DNA from: Methanomassiliicoccales archaeon | Lineage (GTDB): Archaea; Thermoplasmatota; Thermoplasmata; Methanomassiliicoccales; JAAEEP01 | NCBI GenBank assembly: GCA_013415695.1 | Contig: JAAEEP010000003.1 | Coordinates: forward strand, 74,882-138,881 | DNA length: 64,000 bases | Reading direction: 5' to 3' | In this document: in pieces, positions 1,860 to 54,414 of the stretch | How positions within the stretch are numbered: position 1 is the first letter of the stretch | Layout of the letters: each line of letters opens with the position of its first letter | Notes under the pieces: generated by a model | What the model was told of the DNA's origin: nothing | The model's input: the letters and a program-made list of their open reading frames with translations, nothing else | Databases searched by the model: none | Position numbers and translations under genes: made by a program

Positions 1860-1949
1860 GTCCTCTTCATGCCGAAGCTCGGATAAAACCCTTGCCTAAC
1901 AGAGGCCAATGAAAAAAACAATCTACCCTGAGAACCATTGTATTGGCGG

Positions 1950-2537
1950 ATGGGCGAAGGCATTTCAATCAGGTTTGCCGGCAAAGGCGGTCAGGGAATC
2001 ATATTTTCCGGAATTGCTCTAGCCCGGGCATTCTCTCTCTACGAGAATGGACACGGCAAGGAGTACTATGCATACCAAACCCAATCCTACGGTCCTGAGG
2101 CGAGAGGTGGAGCCTCAAAATGTGATATCAGAGTCACCAACGATGAGTCTTCATACCCATTTGTAGAAAAACCGGACTTCCTTGTCCTAATGTCTCAAGA
2201 TGCCTTTGATAAGTATATCGAGGATACGAAACCAGGCACGTTGGTGATTTTGGACAAGGGTCAAATCAAGGGGTACACCGATCTGATGCATTACATAATT
2301 CCAGCTACCGAGAAGGCAGAGGAGTTGGGGGCAAAGATAGTGGCCAATGTGATCATGCTCGGTGCCTTTGTGGAAATCTCTGGCATCATTACCAAGAAGG
2401 CCATCTACGAGGCGCTTGGTGACATATCACCTCATGGAACAAAGGAGATGAACAAGAAGGCTTTCCGCCTGGGAAGCGCGCTGGCAAAGCAGGTTCTCGC
2501 AAAGAAATTCGAATCAGGCAAGAACAGAGAGGAATGA
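1950..2537 (+). CDS. korC: 2-oxoacid:ferredoxin oxidoreductase, gamma subunit (KorC-like)
   Basis: Gamma subunit of a CoA-dependent 2-oxoacid:ferredoxin oxidoreductase, probably the 2-oxoglutarate type. The N-terminal glycine motif GKGGQGI and the QTQSYGPEARGGASK segment are characteristic of KorC. Length from the chosen start is 195 aa, usual for the subunit. The ATG at 1950 is preferred over an upstream in-frame TTG at 1938 because family members begin just ahead of the IRFAGKGGQG segment. The alpha and beta subunits, which carry the thiamine-PP site, are not adjacent: an ABC-F gene lies upstream on the other strand and an acyl-CoA synthetase subunit follows with a 4-nt overlap. The subunit is therefore separated from its partners, or serves a noncanonical enzyme. 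Confidence 0.88.
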   Translation: MGEGISIRFAGKGGQGIIFSGIALARAFSLYENGHGKEYYAYQTQSYGPEARGGASKCDIRVTNDESSYPFVEKPDFLVLMSQDAFDKYIEDTKPGTLVILDKGQIKGYTDLMHYIIPATEKAEELGAKIVANVIMLGAFVEISGIITKKAIYEALGDISPHGTKEMNKKAFRLGSALAKQVLAKKFESGKNREE

Positions 2538-17497: not shown

Positions 17498-17585
17498 TGG
17501 GGCCGGGACCGAGATTTGAACTCGGGTGTACGGATATCCACCACGTGGGCTGCAGTCCGCCACATAGCCGCTCTGTCATCCCGGC
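17498..17585 (-). tRNA. tRNA-Cys (GCA) with a 14-nt intron
   Basis: Cloverleaf on the minus strand. The acceptor stem is GCCGGGA (17585-17579) paired with TCCCGGC (17508-17502). The D arm is ACA...TGT, and the T arm is CCGAG-TTCAAAT-CTCGG. The anticodon stem GCGGA pairs with TCCGT, and the anticodon GCA is at 17553-17551. The stem only closes if 14 nt (17549-17536) are removed after position 37, the canonical archaeal intron site. The junctions form a bulge-helix-bulge: CTGC pairs with GTGG (two G-U pairs), with 3-nt bulges AG/C and AT/A. CCA appears encoded (17500-17498). The discriminator base would be C, unlike the usual U73 of tRNA-Cys. It lies close to cysS, cysE and cysK. Confidence 0.9.
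17536..17549 (-). other. tRNA-Cys intron (14 nt, position 37/38)
   Basis: The intron reads CCCACGTGGTGGAT on the minus strand. Both predicted splice sites fall after the second nucleotide of a 3-nt bulge flanking a 4-bp helix, which is the substrate of the archaeal tRNA-splicing endonuclease. It is among the shorter plausible archaeal introns. Confidence 0.8.
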
Positions 17586-46271: not shown

Positions 46272-46715
46272 ATGGTTCTTGACGAGTCCGATACTGAACT
46301 CAGGCTCGGAATCTGCGGAACGCGAGGGATGGAATTGGCAGACAGTGAGTTGCTCATCAGGATCACGGAACTGAGCGGAGAGAACCTCAGGTCGTGCTAT
46401 CAGTGCGGGAAGTGCTCGGCCTCCTGCCCAATGACTGACTTCATGGACCTATTCCCACGAGATGTTATCAAACAGATTCTAGAAGGGAAGGAGCAGGTTC
46501 TCTTAAGTGAGACACCATGGGTTTGCGCATCTTGCTTCTCGTGCACGGTAAGATGTCCCAACGAGATCGATATCGCCGGGGTGATGGAGGCCGTGAGGCA
46601 GATCAGGCTGAGGGAGAAGTACGACAGGTTCCATCCTTCAAGAATTCCCTTGGATGAACTCGAAGGGTTGCCACAGATCGCCCTTATCGGATGCTTCAGG
46701 AAGATGACTGGATGA
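46272..46715 (+). CDS. hdrC: HdrC-like iron-sulfur subunit
   Basis: A 147-aa ferredoxin-type subunit of a heterodisulfide-reductase-like complex. It has two [4Fe-4S] motifs, C42-X2-C45-X2-C48-X3-C52 (CYQCGKCSASC) and C85-X2-C88-X2-C91-X3-C95 (CASCFSCTVRC), spaced as in HdrC. It passes electrons between the flavin subunit HdrA and the CCG subunit HdrB. It is the first gene of the six-gene operon, and its stop overlaps the hdrB start as ATGA. Confidence 0.93.
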   Translation: MVLDESDTELRLGICGTRGMELADSELLIRITELSGENLRSCYQCGKCSASCPMTDFMDLFPRDVIKQILEGKEQVLLSETPWVCASCFSCTVRCPNEIDIAGVMEAVRQIRLREKYDRFHPSRIPLDELEGLPQIALIGCFRKMTG

Positions 46716-47593
46716 AGAGTATCACCTACTTTCCGGGTTGCACCCACCATACAAACGGGCGCAATATGGAATCCAGCGGAAAGGCCGTTCTGGAAACCCT
46801 CGGTTACCAACTTGAGGAAATGCCAGAATGGATATGCTGCGGAACGGTCTTTGGATTGAGCGAAGATGATCTGTTCCATCAAGTGGCCCCCATCAGGAAC
46901 CTGGCACGCGTGGAGAATGCGGGTGATGACAAGCTCGTAACCATGTGCGCCATGTGCTACAACACCCTTGGGAGGGCTAATCTCCTTGTGAGAAAGGATA
47001 AGGTGGCCCTCGAAGCGTTGAACAGGTTCATGGATGACGAGCCGGATTACCACGGAGTGGTTGACGTGTTCCACCTCAGCCAGTTCCTGAGGGACGAGGT
47101 GGGATTTGAGAAGATATCCAGCAAAGTCAGGCGACCATTGAAAGGGCTCAAGGTGATGCCTTATTATGGGTGCCTCTTGCTCCGCCCGGAGGAGGTCTCC
47201 ATCGACAGCATGGAGGACCCCACGATCATCTGTGATATCCTAGAAGCGGTGGGCGTCCAATCTATCAAGGGCTCATATATCTCGCAGTGCTGCGGATCGT
47301 ACCACACCGTTGACAAGAAGGAGGCCGTGGCCCGCAGGGCGTTCGAGATCATATCATCTGCAAGGAAAAAGGGGGCAGAAATGATCGCTCTTGCTTGTCC
47401 TCTTTGCGAGTTCAATCTTGACGATAGACAGCGTCTTCTGAGTGACAACGGAATGCCTGTCCTGTACTTCACAGAGCTGCTAGCCTTAGCCTTTGGACTG
47501 GAGGACAGCTGCGATTTTGACGAACATTACGTTGATCCACGTCCCCTTCTGAGGGAGAAGGGGTTGTTGGGGGGATCCAATGGGCAAGAATAA
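46712..47593 (+). CDS. hdrB: HdrB-like CCG-domain subunit
   Basis: A 293-aa protein with two CCG domains, which in methanogen HdrB bind two noncubane [4Fe-4S] clusters and reduce disulfides. Domain 1 has C10 (FPGC), CC42-43 (WICCG) and C79/C82 (CAMC). Domain 2 has C154 (YYGC), CC193-194 (SQCCG) and C229/C232 (ACPLCEFN). All ligands are present. The ATG at 46712 (MKSITYFPGC) is chosen over the longer form at 46691, because it overlaps the hdrC stop as ATGA and fits the family N-terminus. The natural substrate (CoM-S-S-CoB or another disulfide) is not visible from sequence. Confidence 0.94.
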   Translation: MKSITYFPGCTHHTNGRNMESSGKAVLETLGYQLEEMPEWICCGTVFGLSEDDLFHQVAPIRNLARVENAGDDKLVTMCAMCYNTLGRANLLVRKDKVALEALNRFMDDEPDYHGVVDVFHLSQFLRDEVGFEKISSKVRRPLKGLKVMPYYGCLLLRPEEVSIDSMEDPTIICDILEAVGVQSIKGSYISQCCGSYHTVDKKEAVARRAFEIISSARKKGAEMIALACPLCEFNLDDRQRLLSDNGMPVLYFTELLALAFGLEDSCDFDEHYVDPRPLLREKGLLGGSNGQE

Positions 47594-48263
47594 GATCAGC
47601 GTCTACATCATGGGAAAGGAGCATCGGGTGCCTGAAGGTTTGACCATCATGAAGGCACTGGAGTACGCAGGATACCGATTGATAAGGGGGTGCGGCTGTA
47701 GAGCGGGGTTCTGCGGAGCCTGTGCCACGATCTACCGGAAGAAAGGTGATTACAAACTGTACACCGCGCTGGCCTGCCAGACCACGGCGGAGAACGGCAT
47801 GTATCTCACCCAGCTTCCGTTCATTCCGGCCAACAAGTCCGAGTATGATCTCGAGAAGATCCGGGCTGGGCCCAACACAATACTGTCAATCTATCCCGAG
47901 GTGGCAAGATGCGTTGCATGCAACACCTGCACCAAGGCTTGTCCCCAGGACATTCAAGTTATGGATTACATTCAGGCGGTCAAAAGGGGCGATATCACCA
48001 GGGCCGCGGATCTCTCGTTCAACTGCCTCCAGTGTGGACTGTGTACCGCCCGATGCCCTGCCGAGATAAAGCAATACCATGTTGCTCAATTGGCTCGAAG
48101 GCTTCACGGTAGATACCTGGCAATAAAATCAGAGCCACTCTCGAAAAGGATCAGTGAGCTAGAAGAAGGGTGCTTTGAGAACGAGATAGACGAGATGATC
48201 GAACTGAAACCCGAGGATCTCAGGAAGAGGTACTTCGAAAGGGAGATCAAGGTCTCGGAGTGA
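47580..48263 (+). CDS. Iron-sulfur protein with one [2Fe-2S] and two [4Fe-4S] clusters (fumarate reductase/TfrB N-terminal type)
   Basis: A 227-aa electron-transfer subunit. Residues 1-75 form a plant-type [2Fe-2S] ferredoxin domain (C38, C40, C45, C48, C66). Then come two [4Fe-4S] motifs, C111/C114/C117/C121 and C149/C152/C155/C159. This resembles fumarate/succinate dehydrogenase iron-sulfur subunits, and the first part of methanogen TfrB, where the CCG part is fused. Here the CCG part is the separate hdrB just upstream. It overlaps hdrB by 14 nt, and its stop overlaps the flavoprotein start. It probably wires the flavoprotein to the Hdr subunits. Confidence 0.9.
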   Translation: MGKNKISVYIMGKEHRVPEGLTIMKALEYAGYRLIRGCGCRAGFCGACATIYRKKGDYKLYTALACQTTAENGMYLTQLPFIPANKSEYDLEKIRAGPNTILSIYPEVARCVACNTCTKACPQDIQVMDYIQAVKRGDITRAADLSFNCLQCGLCTARCPAEIKQYHVAQLARRLHGRYLAIKSEPLSKRISELEEGCFENEIDEMIELKPEDLRKRYFEREIKVSE

Positions 48264-49918
48264 TGGACATGAAATTCATTGACGGCTACCCAGAATATAT
48301 GAGACAATCGATAAAGAAGGTCGAGGCCACCCGTGAGAAGAGGATCTCGTTGGATATGGAGCCCATGTCTGCCGAGGAACGGGAGGAGGTTCTCTCAACA
48401 TATCACCCCGACTATGTGAAAGGGGGAAAACGTTCTCTGAAGGTGGGGGCAAGTAAAGGTGAGATGGTCCATCATGAGACCGCCAATATTCTCGAGGCGA
48501 GGCCGCAGGTGAATCCCGATGAAATCGATCTCGGCTGCATCAACCGTGATGTCGACATCCTCATTATAGGGGGCGGGGGAGCTGGAACCGTCGCTGCACT
48601 TCACGCGGTCTACGAAGGAATTCTTCCAGAGGATATACTCATAACCACCAAGCTGAGGCATGGAGATGCCAACAGCATGATGGCCCAGGGGGGCATTCAA
48701 GCGGCGGACGGTCTGGATGACGATCCCTCCATCCATTTCCTCGATGCGATAGGTGGAGGACACTTCGCCAACAAACCAGACCTGGTCAAGGCGCTGGTAA
48801 TGGACGCCCCGAGGATCATCGATTGGCATCAAAGGCTAGGTGTCATGTACGAAAGGGAGGATGATGGCCATTTCGTAGAGAGGCCGGGTGGAGGTACGAG
48901 TAGACCTCGGCTCCACAGCGCAAAGGATTACACTGGCATGGAAATAATGAGGGTCATTCGGGACGAGGCCCGCAATCTTGGACTTGAGGTTGAGGAGTTC
49001 TCCCCAGCGGTCGAACTGCTCACCGACGGCGATACAGTAACCGGAGCGATACTCATGGATCTTGAAACCCGTGAGTACAGCATAATAAGGGCCAAATCGG
49101 TCATACTGACTACCGGCGGTTTCGGGAGACTTCATATTCAGGGATATCCCACTACCAATCATTACGGGGCAACAGCGGACGGTCTGGTTCTCGCCTACCA
49201 TGTCGGAGCCAGGATCACAGACATGGACAGCGCGCAGTACCATCCAACGGGAGCAGCTTACCCAGAACCCATATTGGGTCAGCTCATCACCGAGAAGGTC
49301 AGGGGGATGGGCGCGATGCCCGTCAACATTGACGGAGAGGCTTTTGTCTACCCGCTGGAGCCAAGGGATGTGGAAAGCGCCTCGTTCATTAGGGAGTGTA
49401 AGACCAGGGGAAAAGGCATTGAGACACCAACAGGAATGCTCGGGGTGTGGCTTGATAGCCCAATGATCGAGGAGATTCACGGTCCCGGGACAATAAAGAA
49501 GGAGCTCATCGCCATGTGGCGTATGGAGCATCAGTTCGGGATCGACATGTCTCAGGACCCCATACTGGTATACCCCACCCTGCACTACCAGAACGGAGGG
49601 GTGGAGATCGATGTTGACGGCTGGACCGGTGTGCCCGGCCTGTACGCAGGAGGCGAAGTGGCTGGAGGCGTTCACGGAAAGAATAGACTCATGGGTAACA
49701 GTTTGCTGGATTACAATGTGTTCGGTAGAAGGTCGGGTATTTCCGCCGCTAGGCATGCGAAGAAAGCATCACCTGGGAAGATCACCTTCGACCATGTGAT
49801 CAGATTCAATTCACTGCTTGACGAGGCCGGGATCGATACCGAGAGGAGATCTCCAATGTTGCTTCCCGATTACAGGGGAGAGAGGGCTATCGCGAGGGCC
49901 CTCAATATCTCTATCTGA
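48263..49918 (+). CDS. Fumarate reductase/succinate dehydrogenase-type flavoprotein
   Basis: A 551-aa FAD protein of the SdhA/FrdA family. After an N-terminal extension of about 95 residues comes the dinucleotide motif VDILIIGGGGAGTVAALHA. The fumarate-site residues of FrdA have clear counterparts: YHPTG, PRD followed by an Arg-rich helix, the His of HYQNGG, and the Arg of GKNRLMGNSLLD. FAD contacts AQGGIQA and TTGGFG are present. The C-terminal helical domain of FrdA is nearly absent. Together with the preceding iron-sulfur protein it resembles thiol:fumarate reductase TfrA. The ATG at 48263 is used; GTG 48260 or ATG 48269 are alternatives. Its TGA is in frame with hdrA. Confidence 0.88.
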   Translation: MDMKFIDGYPEYMRQSIKKVEATREKRISLDMEPMSAEEREEVLSTYHPDYVKGGKRSLKVGASKGEMVHHETANILEARPQVNPDEIDLGCINRDVDILIIGGGGAGTVAALHAVYEGILPEDILITTKLRHGDANSMMAQGGIQAADGLDDDPSIHFLDAIGGGHFANKPDLVKALVMDAPRIIDWHQRLGVMYEREDDGHFVERPGGGTSRPRLHSAKDYTGMEIMRVIRDEARNLGLEVEEFSPAVELLTDGDTVTGAILMDLETREYSIIRAKSVILTTGGFGRLHIQGYPTTNHYGATADGLVLAYHVGARITDMDSAQYHPTGAAYPEPILGQLITEKVRGMGAMPVNIDGEAFVYPLEPRDVESASFIRECKTRGKGIETPTGMLGVWLDSPMIEEIHGPGTIKKELIAMWRMEHQFGIDMSQDPILVYPTLHYQNGGVEIDVDGWTGVPGLYAGGEVAGGVHGKNRLMGNSLLDYNVFGRRSGISAARHAKKASPGKITFDHVIRFNSLLDEAGIDTERRSPMLLPDYRGERAIARALNISI

Positions 49919-49930
49919 GGGGGCGTCAGA

Positions 49931-52471
49931 ACGGGCGATAGAATCGGAGTCTTCATCTGTCACTGCGGCAACAACATCGCTGGTGAGGTGGACATTGATG
50001 CCCTTAGCAATGATGTTGCCCGGTGGGAGGACGTCTACGTGGACGACGAGCTCTTCCTGTGCTCCGAAAGTGGTCAGGAAAAGATAAGGAGATCCATTGA
50101 CGAGCAGGGGCTGGATAAGGTCGTGATAGCCGCTTGTAGCCCGGGTCACCATTACCATGTCTTCCGGGACTGCATAGGGGAAAGGATCAATCCCTTCCTG
50201 TGGGAGTTCGTCAACATCAGGGAGCAGTGCAGCTGGGTACACAAGGGGAAAGAGGCCACCGAAAAGGCACTGGCACTCATCAAGGGCGGTGTCGAGAAGA
50301 CCAGGCTCCTCGATCCCATTGGGACGGTCAAGGTTCCGGTGAGTAAGGACATCTTAGTAGTGGGAGGAGGTATCGCAGGAATCCAAGCCGCTATCGAGTT
50401 GGATTCCAAAGAACATAGAGTGTACCTGATAGAGAAGGAACCAAGCATCGGGGGGAACATGGTCAAGCTGGACAAGACCTTTCCCACCGAGGACTGCTCA
50501 ATGTGCACCATCTCCCCAAAGCTGAGCGATGTCGCAAGGAGAAAGAATGTCGAACTTCTCACCTACTCCGAGGTGGAAGAGGTCTCAGGGAGACCAGGTG
50601 AATATCACGTCAAAATAAGAAGGAAACCCAGATTCGTGGACGAAAAGAGGTGTACGGGCTGCGGTGCATGCGATCAGACCTCATATGAGAAGCTCGTCGT
50701 CCCTAATGGAATAGAGATAGTGGACAGGCTATCGATCGACCGGGAGTTGTGCACCAACTGCGGGGCTTGTGCCAAGATATGCGCGAAAGCTGGACATGAG
50801 GCGATGAAAAAGGGGGAGGATCTTCCATCCTATGATAGCAGCCATTGCGTGGGTTGCTTCAAATGCGTGGAGAAATGCCCCAAGGACGCTATCACCATCA
50901 TTAATGCCTGCCCGGTGAGGGTCAGCTCGGAGTTTGACCACGGCATCGGTTCCAGGGCAGCAATATATGTCCCATTCGCTCAAGCCCTCCCAGCCACCAG
51001 GACCAGGGATCCAGTCAATTGCCTCAGACTAAATGGCACCATGCCCGACTGCGTGGGGTGCGAGACCATCTGCCCGGCTGACGCCATAGTCCACGAGGAC
51101 GAGGAGTCCTTCGTGGAGGTCACGGTTGGAGCTATAATTGTGGCAACGGGATACGAGCTCAAGGACATGTCGGGAACGGAGTACAATCTCGCCCATCCTG
51201 ATGTCATAACAGGGCTGCAGCTTGAGCGCCTTCTGAACGCTTCCGGTCCGACTGGGGGAGAGCTCAGGAGACCGAGCAACGGACTGCTGCCGACGACGGT
51301 GACCTTCATACAGTGCGTTGGAAGCCGGGACCTGAGGTACAATCCCTACTGCTCTAAGATTTGCTGTATGTACGCCATTAAGCAGGCCCGTCTCATCAAG
51401 CAGAGATGGCCTCAGGTCGATGTGAACATATGCTACATGGATCTCAGGGCAGCGGGAAGGTGGTACGAGGAGTACTACAAGACGGTCAGAGAGATGGGCG
51501 TCACTTTCATACGCGGGAACGCGGCCGACGTCCTTGACAATGAGGAGAACAACATAGTCAGGGTGGAGGATACCCTCGACCTTGAAAGAAAGATCCAGCT
51601 GATCGAATCCGATCTGGTTGTGCTGAGCGTGTCCATGAATCCTTCGAAAGGGACATTGGACATCGCCAAGATCCTAGGTGCCAAGATGGGAGAGGACTCG
51701 TTCCTCAATCCGTTGCACCCCAAGATCGAGCCGGTAGACACCGTGCTTGACGGCATCTTCATAGCGGGGACATGCTCCGGTCCCAAGCCCATCCAGGAGT
51801 CCATTGCGGAAGCGAACGCCGTGGCCAGCAGGGCAAGCACATTCCTGCACAATGACGAGATGGAGGTGGACCTGACCACAGCCTGCATAGATCCTTTGGT
51901 GTGCATTGGCTGCGAAGTCTGCAAAGAAGGCTGCAACTACTCCGCTGTCATGAAAGAAGAGGATAAGTTCACTGTTGGTGAGATAAGCTGTAAATCATGT
52001 GGTAAATGCGTTTCCTCTTGCCCCAGCGGTGCCCTCCAGCTGAGGGGTTTGACCGATGACCAGATCGAGGCTCAGATCAAGGGAATTCTTGAACAGGCTC
52101 CAGGTTCCATCGTGGCGCTCTGCTGTCAGCACTGCAGCTACAACGCAGCCGATCTCGCTGGGCTGGCTAAGCGCAAGTACACTTCCAAGGTGAAGATCAT
52201 CAGGACACCTTGCACTGGCAGGATCTCCATGAATCATATTCTCACTGCCTTTGTCAACGGCGCTTCAGGGGTGATGGTGGCAGGCTGCATGGAGGATGAC
52301 TGTCATTACGTGGACGGTAACTACGCGGCAAAGGAGAAGGTCAAGAAGATCAGGGAGATGCTTGAGCTGATGGGCATCAGCGGTGAGAGGGTGGAGATGT
52401 TCAATATGTCTTCCTCGATGGGAGGAAGGTGGATCGAGTGTGTCAACGAGATGGAGGGGAGATGCCAATGA
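49931..52471 (+). CDS. hdrA: HdrA fused to an MvhD-like domain
   Basis: Flavin subunit of a heterodisulfide-reductase-type complex, about 846 aa. In order: an N-terminal cluster region (VFICHCG, ACSPGHH), an FAD domain (ILVVGGGIAGIQAA, EKEPSIGGNMVKLDKTFPTEDCSMC), several [4Fe-4S] motifs (CTGCGAC, CTNCGACAKIC, CVGCFKCVEKC, CIGCEVCKEGC, CKSCGKCVSSC), and a C-terminal MvhD-type [2Fe-2S] domain (ALCCQHCSYNAADLAG ... GCMEDDCHY). HdrA is the electron-bifurcating flavoprotein in methanogens. The conserved N-terminus begins upstream of the first standard start (GTG 49988) and has no ATG, GTG or TTG before it. The ACG at 49931 has GAGGGGG at suitable spacing and is the best guess. Confidence 0.9.
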   Translation, partial: TGDRIGVFICHCGNNIAGEVDIDALSNDVARWEDVYVDDELFLCSESGQEKIRRSIDEQGLDKVVIAACSPGHHYHVFRDCIGERINPFLWEFVNIREQCSWVHKGKEATEKALALIKGGVEKTRLLDPIGTVKVPVSKDILVVGGGIAGIQAAIELDSKEHRVYLIEKEPSIGGNMVKLDKTFPTEDCSMCTISPKLSDVARRKNVELLTYSEVEEVSGRPGEYHVKIRRKPRFVDEKRCTGCGACDQTSYEKLVVPNGIEIVDRLSIDRELCTNCGACAKICAKAGHEAMKKGEDLPSYDSSHCVGCFKCVEKCPKDAITIINACPVRVSSEFDHGIGSRAAIYVPFAQALPATRTRDPVNCLRLNGTMPDCVGCETICPADAIVHEDEESFVEVTVGAIIVATGYELKDMSGTEYNLAHPDVITGLQLERLLNASGPTGGELRRPSNGLLPTTVTFIQCVGSRDLRYNPYCSKICCMYAIKQARLIKQRWPQVDVNICYMDLRAAGRWYEEYYKTVREMGVTFIRGNAADVLDNEENNIVRVEDTLDLERKIQLIESDLVVLSVSMNPSKGTLDIAKILGAKMGEDSFLNPLHPKIEPVDTVLDGIFIAGTCSGPKPIQESIAEANAVASRASTFLHNDEMEVDLTTACIDPLVCIGCEVCKEGCNYSAVMKEEDKFTVGEISCKSCGKCVSSCPSGALQLRGLTDDQIEAQIKGILEQAPGSIVALCCQHCSYNAADLAGLAKRKYTSKVKIIRTPCTGRISMNHILTAFVNGASGVMVAGCMEDDCHYVDGNYAAKEKVKKIREMLELMGISGERVEMFNMSSSMGGRWIECVNEMEGRCQ

Positions 52472-54414
52472 AGAAGCGCATCGGCAACCAGGAGGCTGAT
52501 TGTACCTCGTGCCGACTATGCGAATCGAAATGCCCCACCGAGATCAAGCTCGATCGCTTGGTCAGGCTCAATAGATACATCGAGAAAAAGAGGGGTAGTC
52601 ATGGATCAATGTTCCTGACAATGGGGCTTCTCTCCAGCGACTCATCTTGGGAATACGATGAGGGTGAGACATCTGAAGAATCAGACATAGTCTACTTCCC
52701 CGGCTGCACGCCGTTGTACGATGTTGCGTTCAAGACGGTGGAGGAACAGCCCTACGGCAACTACTCTGCCATGGGAAGGGAGAGGAAGTACTCCCAGATC
52801 GGCCTTGCCGGTTTGAAGCTCCTGAACAAGATTGAGATCAGACCCAGAATGGTGACAGTCTGCTGTGGCCATGACCAGTACTACGCCGGTATGCTGGATG
52901 AGGTGGATGTCCAATCTTCCAGATTGAAGGAAGCAATTGGCAATGCAAAGATGATAGTCACACCATGCGCGGAATGCAGACACATGCTTGTCGATGTGCA
53001 TGGCCTCCCTGCAGTCCATATTTCAGAGTTACTGGCCGAGAGAGCTGATGACCTTCAACTCAAGAGAACAGGGTTGAAGGTCATGTACCACGATCCCTGT
53101 CGTCTGGGAAGGGTCTCCGGAATATATGATGATCCAAGGGATCTGATTTCCCTGGCGGCCGATCTCTCGGAGTTCAGCAGAAACCGGGAGGAAGCGGTGT
53201 GTTGCGGAGTCTCCAGTTGGATCAACTGCAATCGTGTCTCAAAGGAGCAGCGTGAGCGCAAGATAAAGGAATTTGAGGATTCCGGTGCAGATTATCTGGT
53301 TGTCTCCTGCCCGAAGTGCGCCATGCACCTCGACTGCCTCTACTTCGAGGAAGGCGAGGAAGGAAGGGAGAGGGATGACCCCAACATCATCGATTTCTCG
53401 GAGCTGTTGGCAATCTCCGCCGGGATCCACTCCATCGAGGAGATGGGAGAAGGTCATTTTCGAACAAGGAACAAACCAGAAGGGCCAATTGTGCTCGAGA
53501 AGGTCAACAAAGACCCGATCGACCACATCGACGACGAATTGACAAGCGATCTATTCAACTGTTCCACCTGTTTCCAGTGCGTGGAGGTCTGCGAGACCGG
53601 TCACCTCACCCCACATCTTATGGAAGAGCTCAGATCATTCTTCATCTCGAAGGAGATGAATCCAGAGAAACACAGGAAAATGCTATCCAGTATTGATTCC
53701 ACTGGCAACCCTTTCGGTGAAGAGGAAGGGTACTCTCAGGTCAAGGACGATGCGGAGTTCATCTACTTCCCTGGCTGCACCGGAGTCTACCGAATGAAGG
53801 GGATATTCGACGGTACAAAGAAGATTCTTGAGGAGATGGGAGTGAGTTATTCCATACCGGAAGGGTTGATTTGTTGTGGCTCACCACTCATGAGGGTGGG
53901 ATACGACGCCGAGGAAGTGAGGACCAGGAATACCGAATTGCTGGATCGGAAGGTGCTGGTATCATGCGCAGGTTGCTACGCTGCTCTCGCCAACGACTAC
54001 GAAGGGGTGGAAGTTGAGCACATTATCGAACTCCTTGCTAGAAAGGCGAAAGAGATGGCCCTCAAGCCTCTGAATATGAAGGTTGCCTATCACGATCCAT
54101 GCCATCTGGGAAGAGAGTTCGGCATCTACGATGAGCCTCGAGAGGTTATCAAAGCGATTCCCGGAGTGGAGCTCATCGAATTCTCCGAGAACAGGGAGAA
54201 CAGCAGATGCTGTGGAGGCGGAGGCGGACTAAGATCTTGGAATCCCGAGAAGGCCGCTGAGCTCGCCAGAGTAAGGATGAGTGAAGCGGAGGAGCAGGGC
54301 GTGGATGCAGTGGTCTCCGCCTGTCCGTTCTGCAAGCTCAATCTTCAGGCGGTGACGGATATCGAGGTTCTGGACATCACCGAGCTTCTGGTCAGGTCTC
54401 TTCAATCGGAGTAA
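52468..54414 (+). CDS. Tandemly duplicated HdrD-like protein (two [4Fe-4S]-CCG-CCG modules)
   Basis: A 648-aa protein built of two similar halves. Each has one [4Fe-4S] motif (C12-C22; C365-C375) and two CCG domains. These are C80, CC132-133, C167/C170; C211, CC245-246, C281/C284; C437, CC469-470, C500/C503; C545, CC581-582, C619/C622. All four retain the ligand pattern. Ordinary HdrD has one such half, with two [4Fe-4S] motifs. The ATG at 52468 overlaps the hdrA stop and is preceded by GGAGGGGAG. It is the last gene of the operon and a likely second disulfide- or thiol-handling site. Lactate or glycolate oxidase iron-sulfur subunits (GlcF/LldE) share this fold, so another role is possible. 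Confidence 0.86.
   Translation: MKKRIGNQEADCTSCRLCESKCPTEIKLDRLVRLNRYIEKKRGSHGSMFLTMGLLSSDSSWEYDEGETSEESDIVYFPGCTPLYDVAFKTVEEQPYGNYSAMGRERKYSQIGLAGLKLLNKIEIRPRMVTVCCGHDQYYAGMLDEVDVQSSRLKEAIGNAKMIVTPCAECRHMLVDVHGLPAVHISELLAERADDLQLKRTGLKVMYHDPCRLGRVSGIYDDPRDLISLAADLSEFSRNREEAVCCGVSSWINCNRVSKEQRERKIKEFEDSGADYLVVSCPKCAMHLDCLYFEEGEEGRERDDPNIIDFSELLAISAGIHSIEEMGEGHFRTRNKPEGPIVLEKVNKDPIDHIDDELTSDLFNCSTCFQCVEVCETGHLTPHLMEELRSFFISKEMNPEKHRKMLSSIDSTGNPFGEEEGYSQVKDDAEFIYFPGCTGVYRMKGIFDGTKKILEEMGVSYSIPEGLICCGSPLMRVGYDAEEVRTRNTELLDRKVLVSCAGCYAALANDYEGVEVEHIIELLARKAKEMALKPLNMKVAYHDPCHLGREFGIYDEPREVIKAIPGVELIEFSENRENSRCCGGGGGLRSWNPEKAAELARVRMSEAEEQGVDAVVSACPFCKLNLQAVTDIEVLDITELLVRSLQSE

Follow-up and report, generated by a model that had tools for sequence, protein, structure and literature searches.

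What does a methanogen do with an operon in which subunits of heterodisulfide reductase (Hdr) are packed together with a flavoprotein of the fumarate reductase type? The question is raised by a 64,000-nucleotide stretch of DNA (the window) on contig 3 (JAAEEP010000003.1) of the genome of a Methanomassiliicoccales archaeon (GCA_013415695.1; 1.99 Mb, 99.6% complete), where six same-strand genes, overlapping or nearly touching, occupy positions 46272-54414 (+) in the order hdrC-hdrB-iron-sulfur protein ([2Fe-2S]/2x[4Fe-4S])-FrdA-type flavoprotein-HdrA-MvhD fusion-doubled HdrD-like protein. These identities and overlaps had been claimed in an earlier reading made from the letters alone (the sequence-only reading), and family scans of all six genes with Pfam and NCBIfam models bore them out. 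With moderate confidence, and arguing from sequence, we take the operon to encode one soluble cytoplasmic electron-bifurcating fumarate reductase, which would supply succinate and reduced ferredoxin for the synthesis of 2-oxoglutarate.

The flavoprotein (48260..49918, +, starting in a GTGA at 48260; 552 amino acids; PF00890, 224.6 bits) consists of an N-terminal extension of ~95 amino acids followed by the flavin adenine dinucleotide (FAD)-binding and capping domains, without the C-terminal helical Succ_DH_flav_C domain. The fumarate-site residues were said in the sequence-only reading to be kept, and all are present: H328, T344, E345, R369, H442 and R476 correspond to H232, T244, E245, R287, H355 and R390 of Escherichia coli FrdA, and all six were invariant in 49 diverse relatives. 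The same 49 relatives also share Asn138, which replaces the covalent-FAD histidine. E. coli FrdA H44 mutants, which lack that histidine, retain fumarate reduction and lose succinate oxidation, and the expected direction here is therefore reductive. A membrane quinone-linked complex II (SdhABCD/FrdABCD) does not fit, given Asn138 and because no membrane-anchor domain was matched by Pfam in any of the six operon proteins, whose product is probably soluble. The AlphaFold model of the flavoprotein (predicted local distance difference test score 91.1, with the N-terminal extension well ordered) had E. coli FrdA (PDB 1kf6) as its best solved structural match.

It is highly improbable that the flavoprotein acts on another substrate, such as aspartate or another enoate. 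Its catalytic residues are common to L-aspartate oxidase and its N-terminal extension is without a known role, but the position of NadB Glu121 (E. coli numbering), which we take to be the substrate-selecting residue of L-aspartate oxidase, is Gly210 here and Gly or Ala across the relatives sampled; the host has a separate NadX-type gene of the aspartate dehydrogenase family, and the neighbours of the flavoprotein in many phyla are fumarase, SucCD, the 2-oxoacid:ferredoxin oxidoreductase Kor and malic enzyme. NadB identity was rejected because of the missing glutamate and the separate NadX-type gene, and a check of residues, tree and structure match for a grouping with L-aspartate oxidase or adenosine 5'-phosphosulfate reductase came out negative.

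The description of the flavoprotein as TfrA-like did not hold. Its best family match was TfrA (NF004900) at 292.8 bits, below the curated cut-off of 718, and in a tree whose root position is unsure because of long reference branches its clade was separate from Tfr, Sdh, Frd and NadB (Shimodaira-Hasegawa-like approximate likelihood ratio test 99, branch 2.16). True TfrAB identity was thus ruled out by score, architecture and tree. Methanogen TfrAB is similar in combining a soluble FrdA with [2Fe-2S], [4Fe-4S] and CCG parts, but the TfrA copies of the host order have no N-terminal extension, keep the covalent-type histidine and have no HdrA nearby. TfrB is moreover one fused chain of [2Fe-2S], 2x[4Fe-4S] and CCG parts, as in the TfrB-like chains of ~518-543 amino acids beside TfrA in two further genomes of the order (G300 and G266), whereas in the window these parts are split between a 227-amino-acid iron-sulfur protein and a separate HdrB.

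The other five subunits carry the centres that an electron path would use. The HdrC-like subunit (46272..46715, +; 147 amino acids, 2x[4Fe-4S]; NCBIfam HdrC, 71 bits) has CxxCxxCxxxCP at residues 42-53 and 85-96, with all eight cysteines invariant in 48 sequences, and its stop is joined in one ATGA to the likely start (ATG 46712) of the HdrB-like subunit (46691..47593, +; at most 300 amino acids; TIGR03288, 148 bits). HdrB aligns with the solved HdrB 9sfi, 8rvu and 5odc, and its two CCG motifs, with ten cluster cysteines kept in 96-100% of 53 sequences, are predicted sites for two noncubane [4Fe-4S] clusters. The SdhB/TfrB-N-like iron-sulfur subunit, in the FrdB role (47580..48263, +; Fer2 and Fer4 domains), starts 14 bases within the HdrB open reading frame (ORF) and has a plant-type [2Fe-2S] motif (C40/C45/C48/C66) and two [4Fe-4S] motifs (four plus eight Cys), with the cluster cysteines conserved in 99-100% of 71 sequences. 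After a gap of ~9 bases, the flavoprotein gene is followed by an HdrA2-type subunit fused C-terminally to MvhD/FlpD (49928..52471, approximate because the start is uncertain, +; ~847 amino acids; NF040770, 899 bits; PF02662 FlpD, 144.7 bits). This protein has an inserted ferredoxin domain and aligns to the solved HdrA 8rvu and 5odc with matching cysteines kept; neither E433 nor K485 varied among 51 HdrA sequences, and the two align with the Lys/Glu of solved HdrA that are the flavin-site residues of the Methanothermococcus structure. The last ORF, for the doubled HdrD-like protein (52429..54414, +; at most 661 amino acids; PF02754 x4; TfrB, 296 bits), starts inside HdrA. It is made of two repeats of [4Fe-4S] and CCG-CCG (four CCG domains in all, with two [4Fe-4S] motifs), and 30 of its 31 cysteines were conserved in all of the few full-length homologs. 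The operon therefore has the hallmarks of HdrABC-MvhADG, namely the HdrA flavin protein, HdrC with 2x[4Fe-4S], HdrB with two CCG clusters, and MvhD, all with their cluster cysteines; it differs in that MvhD is fused to HdrA, MvhAG is absent from the operon and the fumarate site is the proposed acceptor.

One irregularity was observed at the start of HdrA. The mechanical ORF begins late, at 49988; within 49916-49990, no ATG, GTG or TTG lies upstream of the conserved N-terminus IGVFICHCG, and the TGA stop of FrdA is in frame with HdrA, at a place where a normal ATG stands in Candidatus (Ca.) Mnemosynella. The sequence does not distinguish between a base error, read-through and a non-canonical start as the cause, and a comparison of the DNA across the FrdA-HdrA junction with viral contigs gave no match and was uninformative.

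Is this arrangement a chance assembly? The flavoprotein clade comprises at least 591 loci in bacteria and archaea of many phyla and is carried by 56 of 390 genomes of the host phylum (Thermoplasmatota). Linkage was counted on the same strand within 5 kb for 120 clade loci, with neighbours identified using family models for KorA/B/C, SucC/D, MvhG, MvhA, malic enzyme and FlxA/FlxB-like NADH-input proteins. Many of the loci end at contig ends, so the counts are minima, and the loci were drawn from best-hit lists that include some duplicates of one genome (e.g. L039 and L089) and cannot be treated as independent samples. An iron-sulfur gene in the FrdB role was near FrdA in 114 of the 120 loci, HdrA or HdrB in 95, Kor, SucD or malic enzyme in 53 and MvhA in 22, while none of 22 TfrA-type control loci from the same phylum had any of these neighbours. 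The recurring core is HdrC-HdrB-FeS-FrdA with HdrA nearby, and the donor module differs (MvhAG, Flx-like or none). In several Thermoplasmatota and bacteria, members of the FrdA clade also have as a recurrent neighbour a second, divergent HdrA-like protein of ~850 amino acids (L032, 12023-14572).

The exact six-gene order was found again at one locus among those read, in Ca. Mnemosynella biddleae JdFR-21 (L085), with identities to the window of 67% for HdrC, 57% for HdrB, 67% for the iron-sulfur protein, 71% for FrdA, 67% for HdrA and 56% for the HdrD-like protein. This recurrence at 56-71% protein identity, with the conserved linkage in the 120 loci, ruled out chance clustering. The Ca. Mnemosynella flavoprotein is also the tree sister of the window sequence (support 98) although the two hosts come from separate phyla, a pattern suggestive of horizontal transfer. 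Its operon is flanked by a divergent fumarase gene and by a gene of the major facilitator superfamily (MFS) unrelated to the MFS gene upstream of the window operon, and the idea that the latter encodes a dicarboxylate transporter conserved with the operon is thus unsupported.

How might such a complex work? Electron pairs from a donor near the H2 potential would reach the FAD of HdrA, either from H2, if the Mvh hydrogenase encoded elsewhere in the genome docks on the MvhD domain, or from another donor through the HdrD-like subunit. One electron would then run downhill to the flavoprotein by way of HdrC, HdrB and the [2Fe-2S]/[4Fe-4S] protein, and fumarate would there be reduced to succinate, and the second would run uphill from the HdrA FAD to ferredoxin. 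SucCD would convert succinate to succinyl-CoA, and Kor would use the reduced ferredoxin to drive its carboxylation to 2-oxoglutarate; with bifurcation, one fumarate would yield one two-electron ferredoxin equivalent, as needed for one Kor carboxylation per succinyl-CoA. The fumarate/succinate potential of +33 mV (PMC5861303) means that, with electrons at the H2 level, fumarate reduction can cover the cost of reducing ferredoxin and leaves ample drive for bifurcation. Operation in reverse, as a confurcating succinate dehydrogenase that merges electrons of succinate and reduced ferredoxin onto H2 or another mid-potential carrier, is very unlikely. Hdr systems can be reversible, and a fermentative or syntrophic life is probable for many carriers, judged from their taxa, but succinate oxidation at about +30 mV makes a very poor donor, the covalent-FAD histidine is Asn in every member, and the methanogenic host and the adjacent Kor in relatives fit reductive 2-oxoglutarate synthesis better.

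The partner enzymes of a bifurcating fumarate reductase were found in the host genome, which encodes fumarase, SucCD, KorDAB and KorC, so that a route from fumarate through succinate and succinyl-CoA to 2-oxoglutarate is encoded, with fumarase ahead of it. No other FrdA, SdhA or NadB homolog was found in a search of the host genome. KorC, the gamma subunit of 2-oxoacid:ferredoxin oxidoreductase, lies in the window outside the operon (1938..2537, +; NF006323, 178 bits), and KorD-A-B lies on the same contig ~4 kb before the window start (L203:8474-10687); KorC is thus ~6 kb from KorD-A-B, versus adjoining it in relatives. MvhA and MvhG, absent from the operon, are present elsewhere in the genome, which has two NiFe hydrogenases, one of them beside HdrA and MvhD genes. 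A dense run of HdrA, MvhD, HdrD-like and MvhAG genes was also seen on contig 6 (L205, L206). Elsewhere in the window, ARAGORN called a tRNA at 17498-17585 (-) with the anticodon undetermined, which Rfam does not confirm.

The bifurcating reading is supported by the invariant fumarate site, the absence of the NadB-type glutamate, the linkage to Hdr, Kor, SucD and malic enzyme in relatives, the fumarase neighbour in Ca. Mnemosynella, the partner enzymes of the host and the residues kept in alignment with the HdrA flavin site. Several points weigh against it: Kor and SucCD do not adjoin the operon in the host genome; no input gene for a donor, be it of the hydrogenase, formate dehydrogenase, FrhB or Flx kind, lies in the operon; and 40 stretches of the host genome match HdrA-MvhD at E<=1e-20, so that with so many other HdrA copies the operon partners could be exchanged. 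In addition, an HdrD-like gene sits beside FrdA here and in Ca. Mnemosynella only (1 of the 120 other loci), and no role is assigned to its product. The sequence-only reading had proposed a soluble complex linking H2 or ferredoxin, a disulfide and fumarate/succinate. Of this, the fumarate/succinate flavoprotein joined to Hdr parts stands, solubility is probable and ferredoxin is a likely partner; H2 is plausible, although a catalytic hydrogenase subunit is missing from the operon, and a disulfide is neither shown nor needed.

The disulfide bears on the reading already given for Ca. Mnemosynella (PMC9635834), that of a thiol:fumarate reductase. Applied to the window, CCG sites of HdrB and/or the HdrD-like protein would oxidise coenzyme M (CoM-SH) and coenzyme B (CoB-SH), the electrons would reduce fumarate, and HdrA-MvhD would only re-reduce the heterodisulfide. 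The host mcrA scores above its curated cut-off, and the host therefore uses CoM and CoB; the HdrD-like protein scores best to TfrB, and both HdrB CCG motifs are kept. Besides the HdrA-HdrD-like module, a true TfrA/TfrB-like pair is present elsewhere in the genomes of two further members of the order. We nevertheless consider a thiol:fumarate reductase unlikely, since the flavoprotein does not fall within the TfrA clade and scores far below its cut-off, TfrA-type loci have no Hdr neighbours (0/22), and the HdrC-HdrB-FeS-FrdA core is widespread in bacteria. The link to CoM and CoB was checked through mcrA, which the host has but which was found in none of 22 other carrier genomes tested, Ca. Mnemosynella included, a result limited by incomplete assemblies. 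The core complex is nonetheless clearly independent of methanogenesis and does not need a disulfide substrate, while in the host itself a thiol role is still conceivable.

Within the order, of whose sample the host is the sole member of its family, HdrA-MvhD and the doubled HdrD-like protein are also found together where FrdA is missing, beside HdrC/HdrB pairs, in a few other members (L165, 8462-14611; L166, 233-8943; L167, 8011-9918) and thus form a separable module, perhaps an alternative point at which electrons enter or leave. The TfrA/TfrB-like pairs of the two genomes that have both (L246, 1133-4418; L247, 282-3532) scored 715 and 698 bits, just below the cut-off of 718, and have no Hdr neighbours. 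It is conceivable, though doubtful, that the doubled HdrD-like protein makes the complex three-way, the HdrA flavin sending its high-potential electron to fumarate or to CoM-S-S-CoB, or taking thiol electrons; one soluble machine would then tie together methanogenesis, ferredoxin supply and 2-oxoglutarate synthesis.

How much of this was known? The combination had been thought undescribed, but Hdr-linked fumarate reductase clusters of bacteria have been published (PMC6315080, PMC7282089, PMC8542988), and the window operon shares FrdA, FrdB and HdrABC in one cluster with them; the bacterial clusters adjoin Kor and/or an input module of the Mvh or Flx type, which the window operon lacks. For tubeworm symbionts and Thioflavicoccus, Rubin-Blum et al. 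proposed that the korABCD, tfrAB and flxABCD-hdrABC products form one complex (PMC6315080), and co-expression work in Endoriftia came after (PMC11636981). As described, that cluster is alike in interspersing a fumarate reductase with Hdr and Kor, with a complex shuttling electrons to both, but has NADH (Flx) input and a full reductive tricarboxylic acid (rTCA) cycle. Another proposal of a ferredoxin-linked fumarate reductase concerns Pseudoclostridium thermosuccinogenes (PMC7282089, which cites a preprint of 2019), whose succinate operon joins fumarase, Hdr and fumarate reductase but has Flx/NADH input and serves fermentation to succinate; its description mentions no doubled HdrD-like subunit. 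The thiol:fumarate reductase-2-oxoglutarate:ferredoxin oxidoreductase-fumarase-SucCD-Mvh-Hdr cluster reported for Ca. Celaenobacter (Cloacimonadota; PMC8542988) resembles an H2-driven version, and Cloacimonadota members fall inside the same FrdA clade, but its hydrogenase genes are inside the cluster and it serves rTCA carbon fixation. The search for the six-gene order elsewhere gave the one further locus, and that one was already noted: Adam et al. 2022 noted, in Ca. Mnemosynella, synteny between an Hdr-like complex and what they call a thiol:fumarate reductase (PMC9635834), with subunits and family left undefined in the main text. That locus has the identical gene order and the sister FrdA, but no mcrA was found in its genome and the operon is flanked by fumarase and by an MFS gene without relation to that of the window. 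The concept is therefore known from tubeworm symbionts, Pseudoclostridium, Cloacimonadota and Ca. Mnemosynella. Relative to the open-licence literature, beyond which more prior work may exist, the methanogen host, the anatomy of the HdrD-containing variant and the sequence definition of the clade are new.

It is not settled how many anaerobes that lack a membrane fumarate reductase produce succinate and 2-oxoglutarate, and the literature is split between a thiol:fumarate reductase and a bifurcating one. The loci described here belong to one large FrdA clade, definable by sequence through its N-terminal extension and the Asn in place of the covalent-FAD histidine, linked to HdrABC and provided with interchangeable donor modules, and the methanogen operon, a minimal version with six genes, offers a tractable target. 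Should the operon indeed encode a bifurcating enzyme, fumarate reduction would pay for the ferredoxin needed by the next carboxylation.

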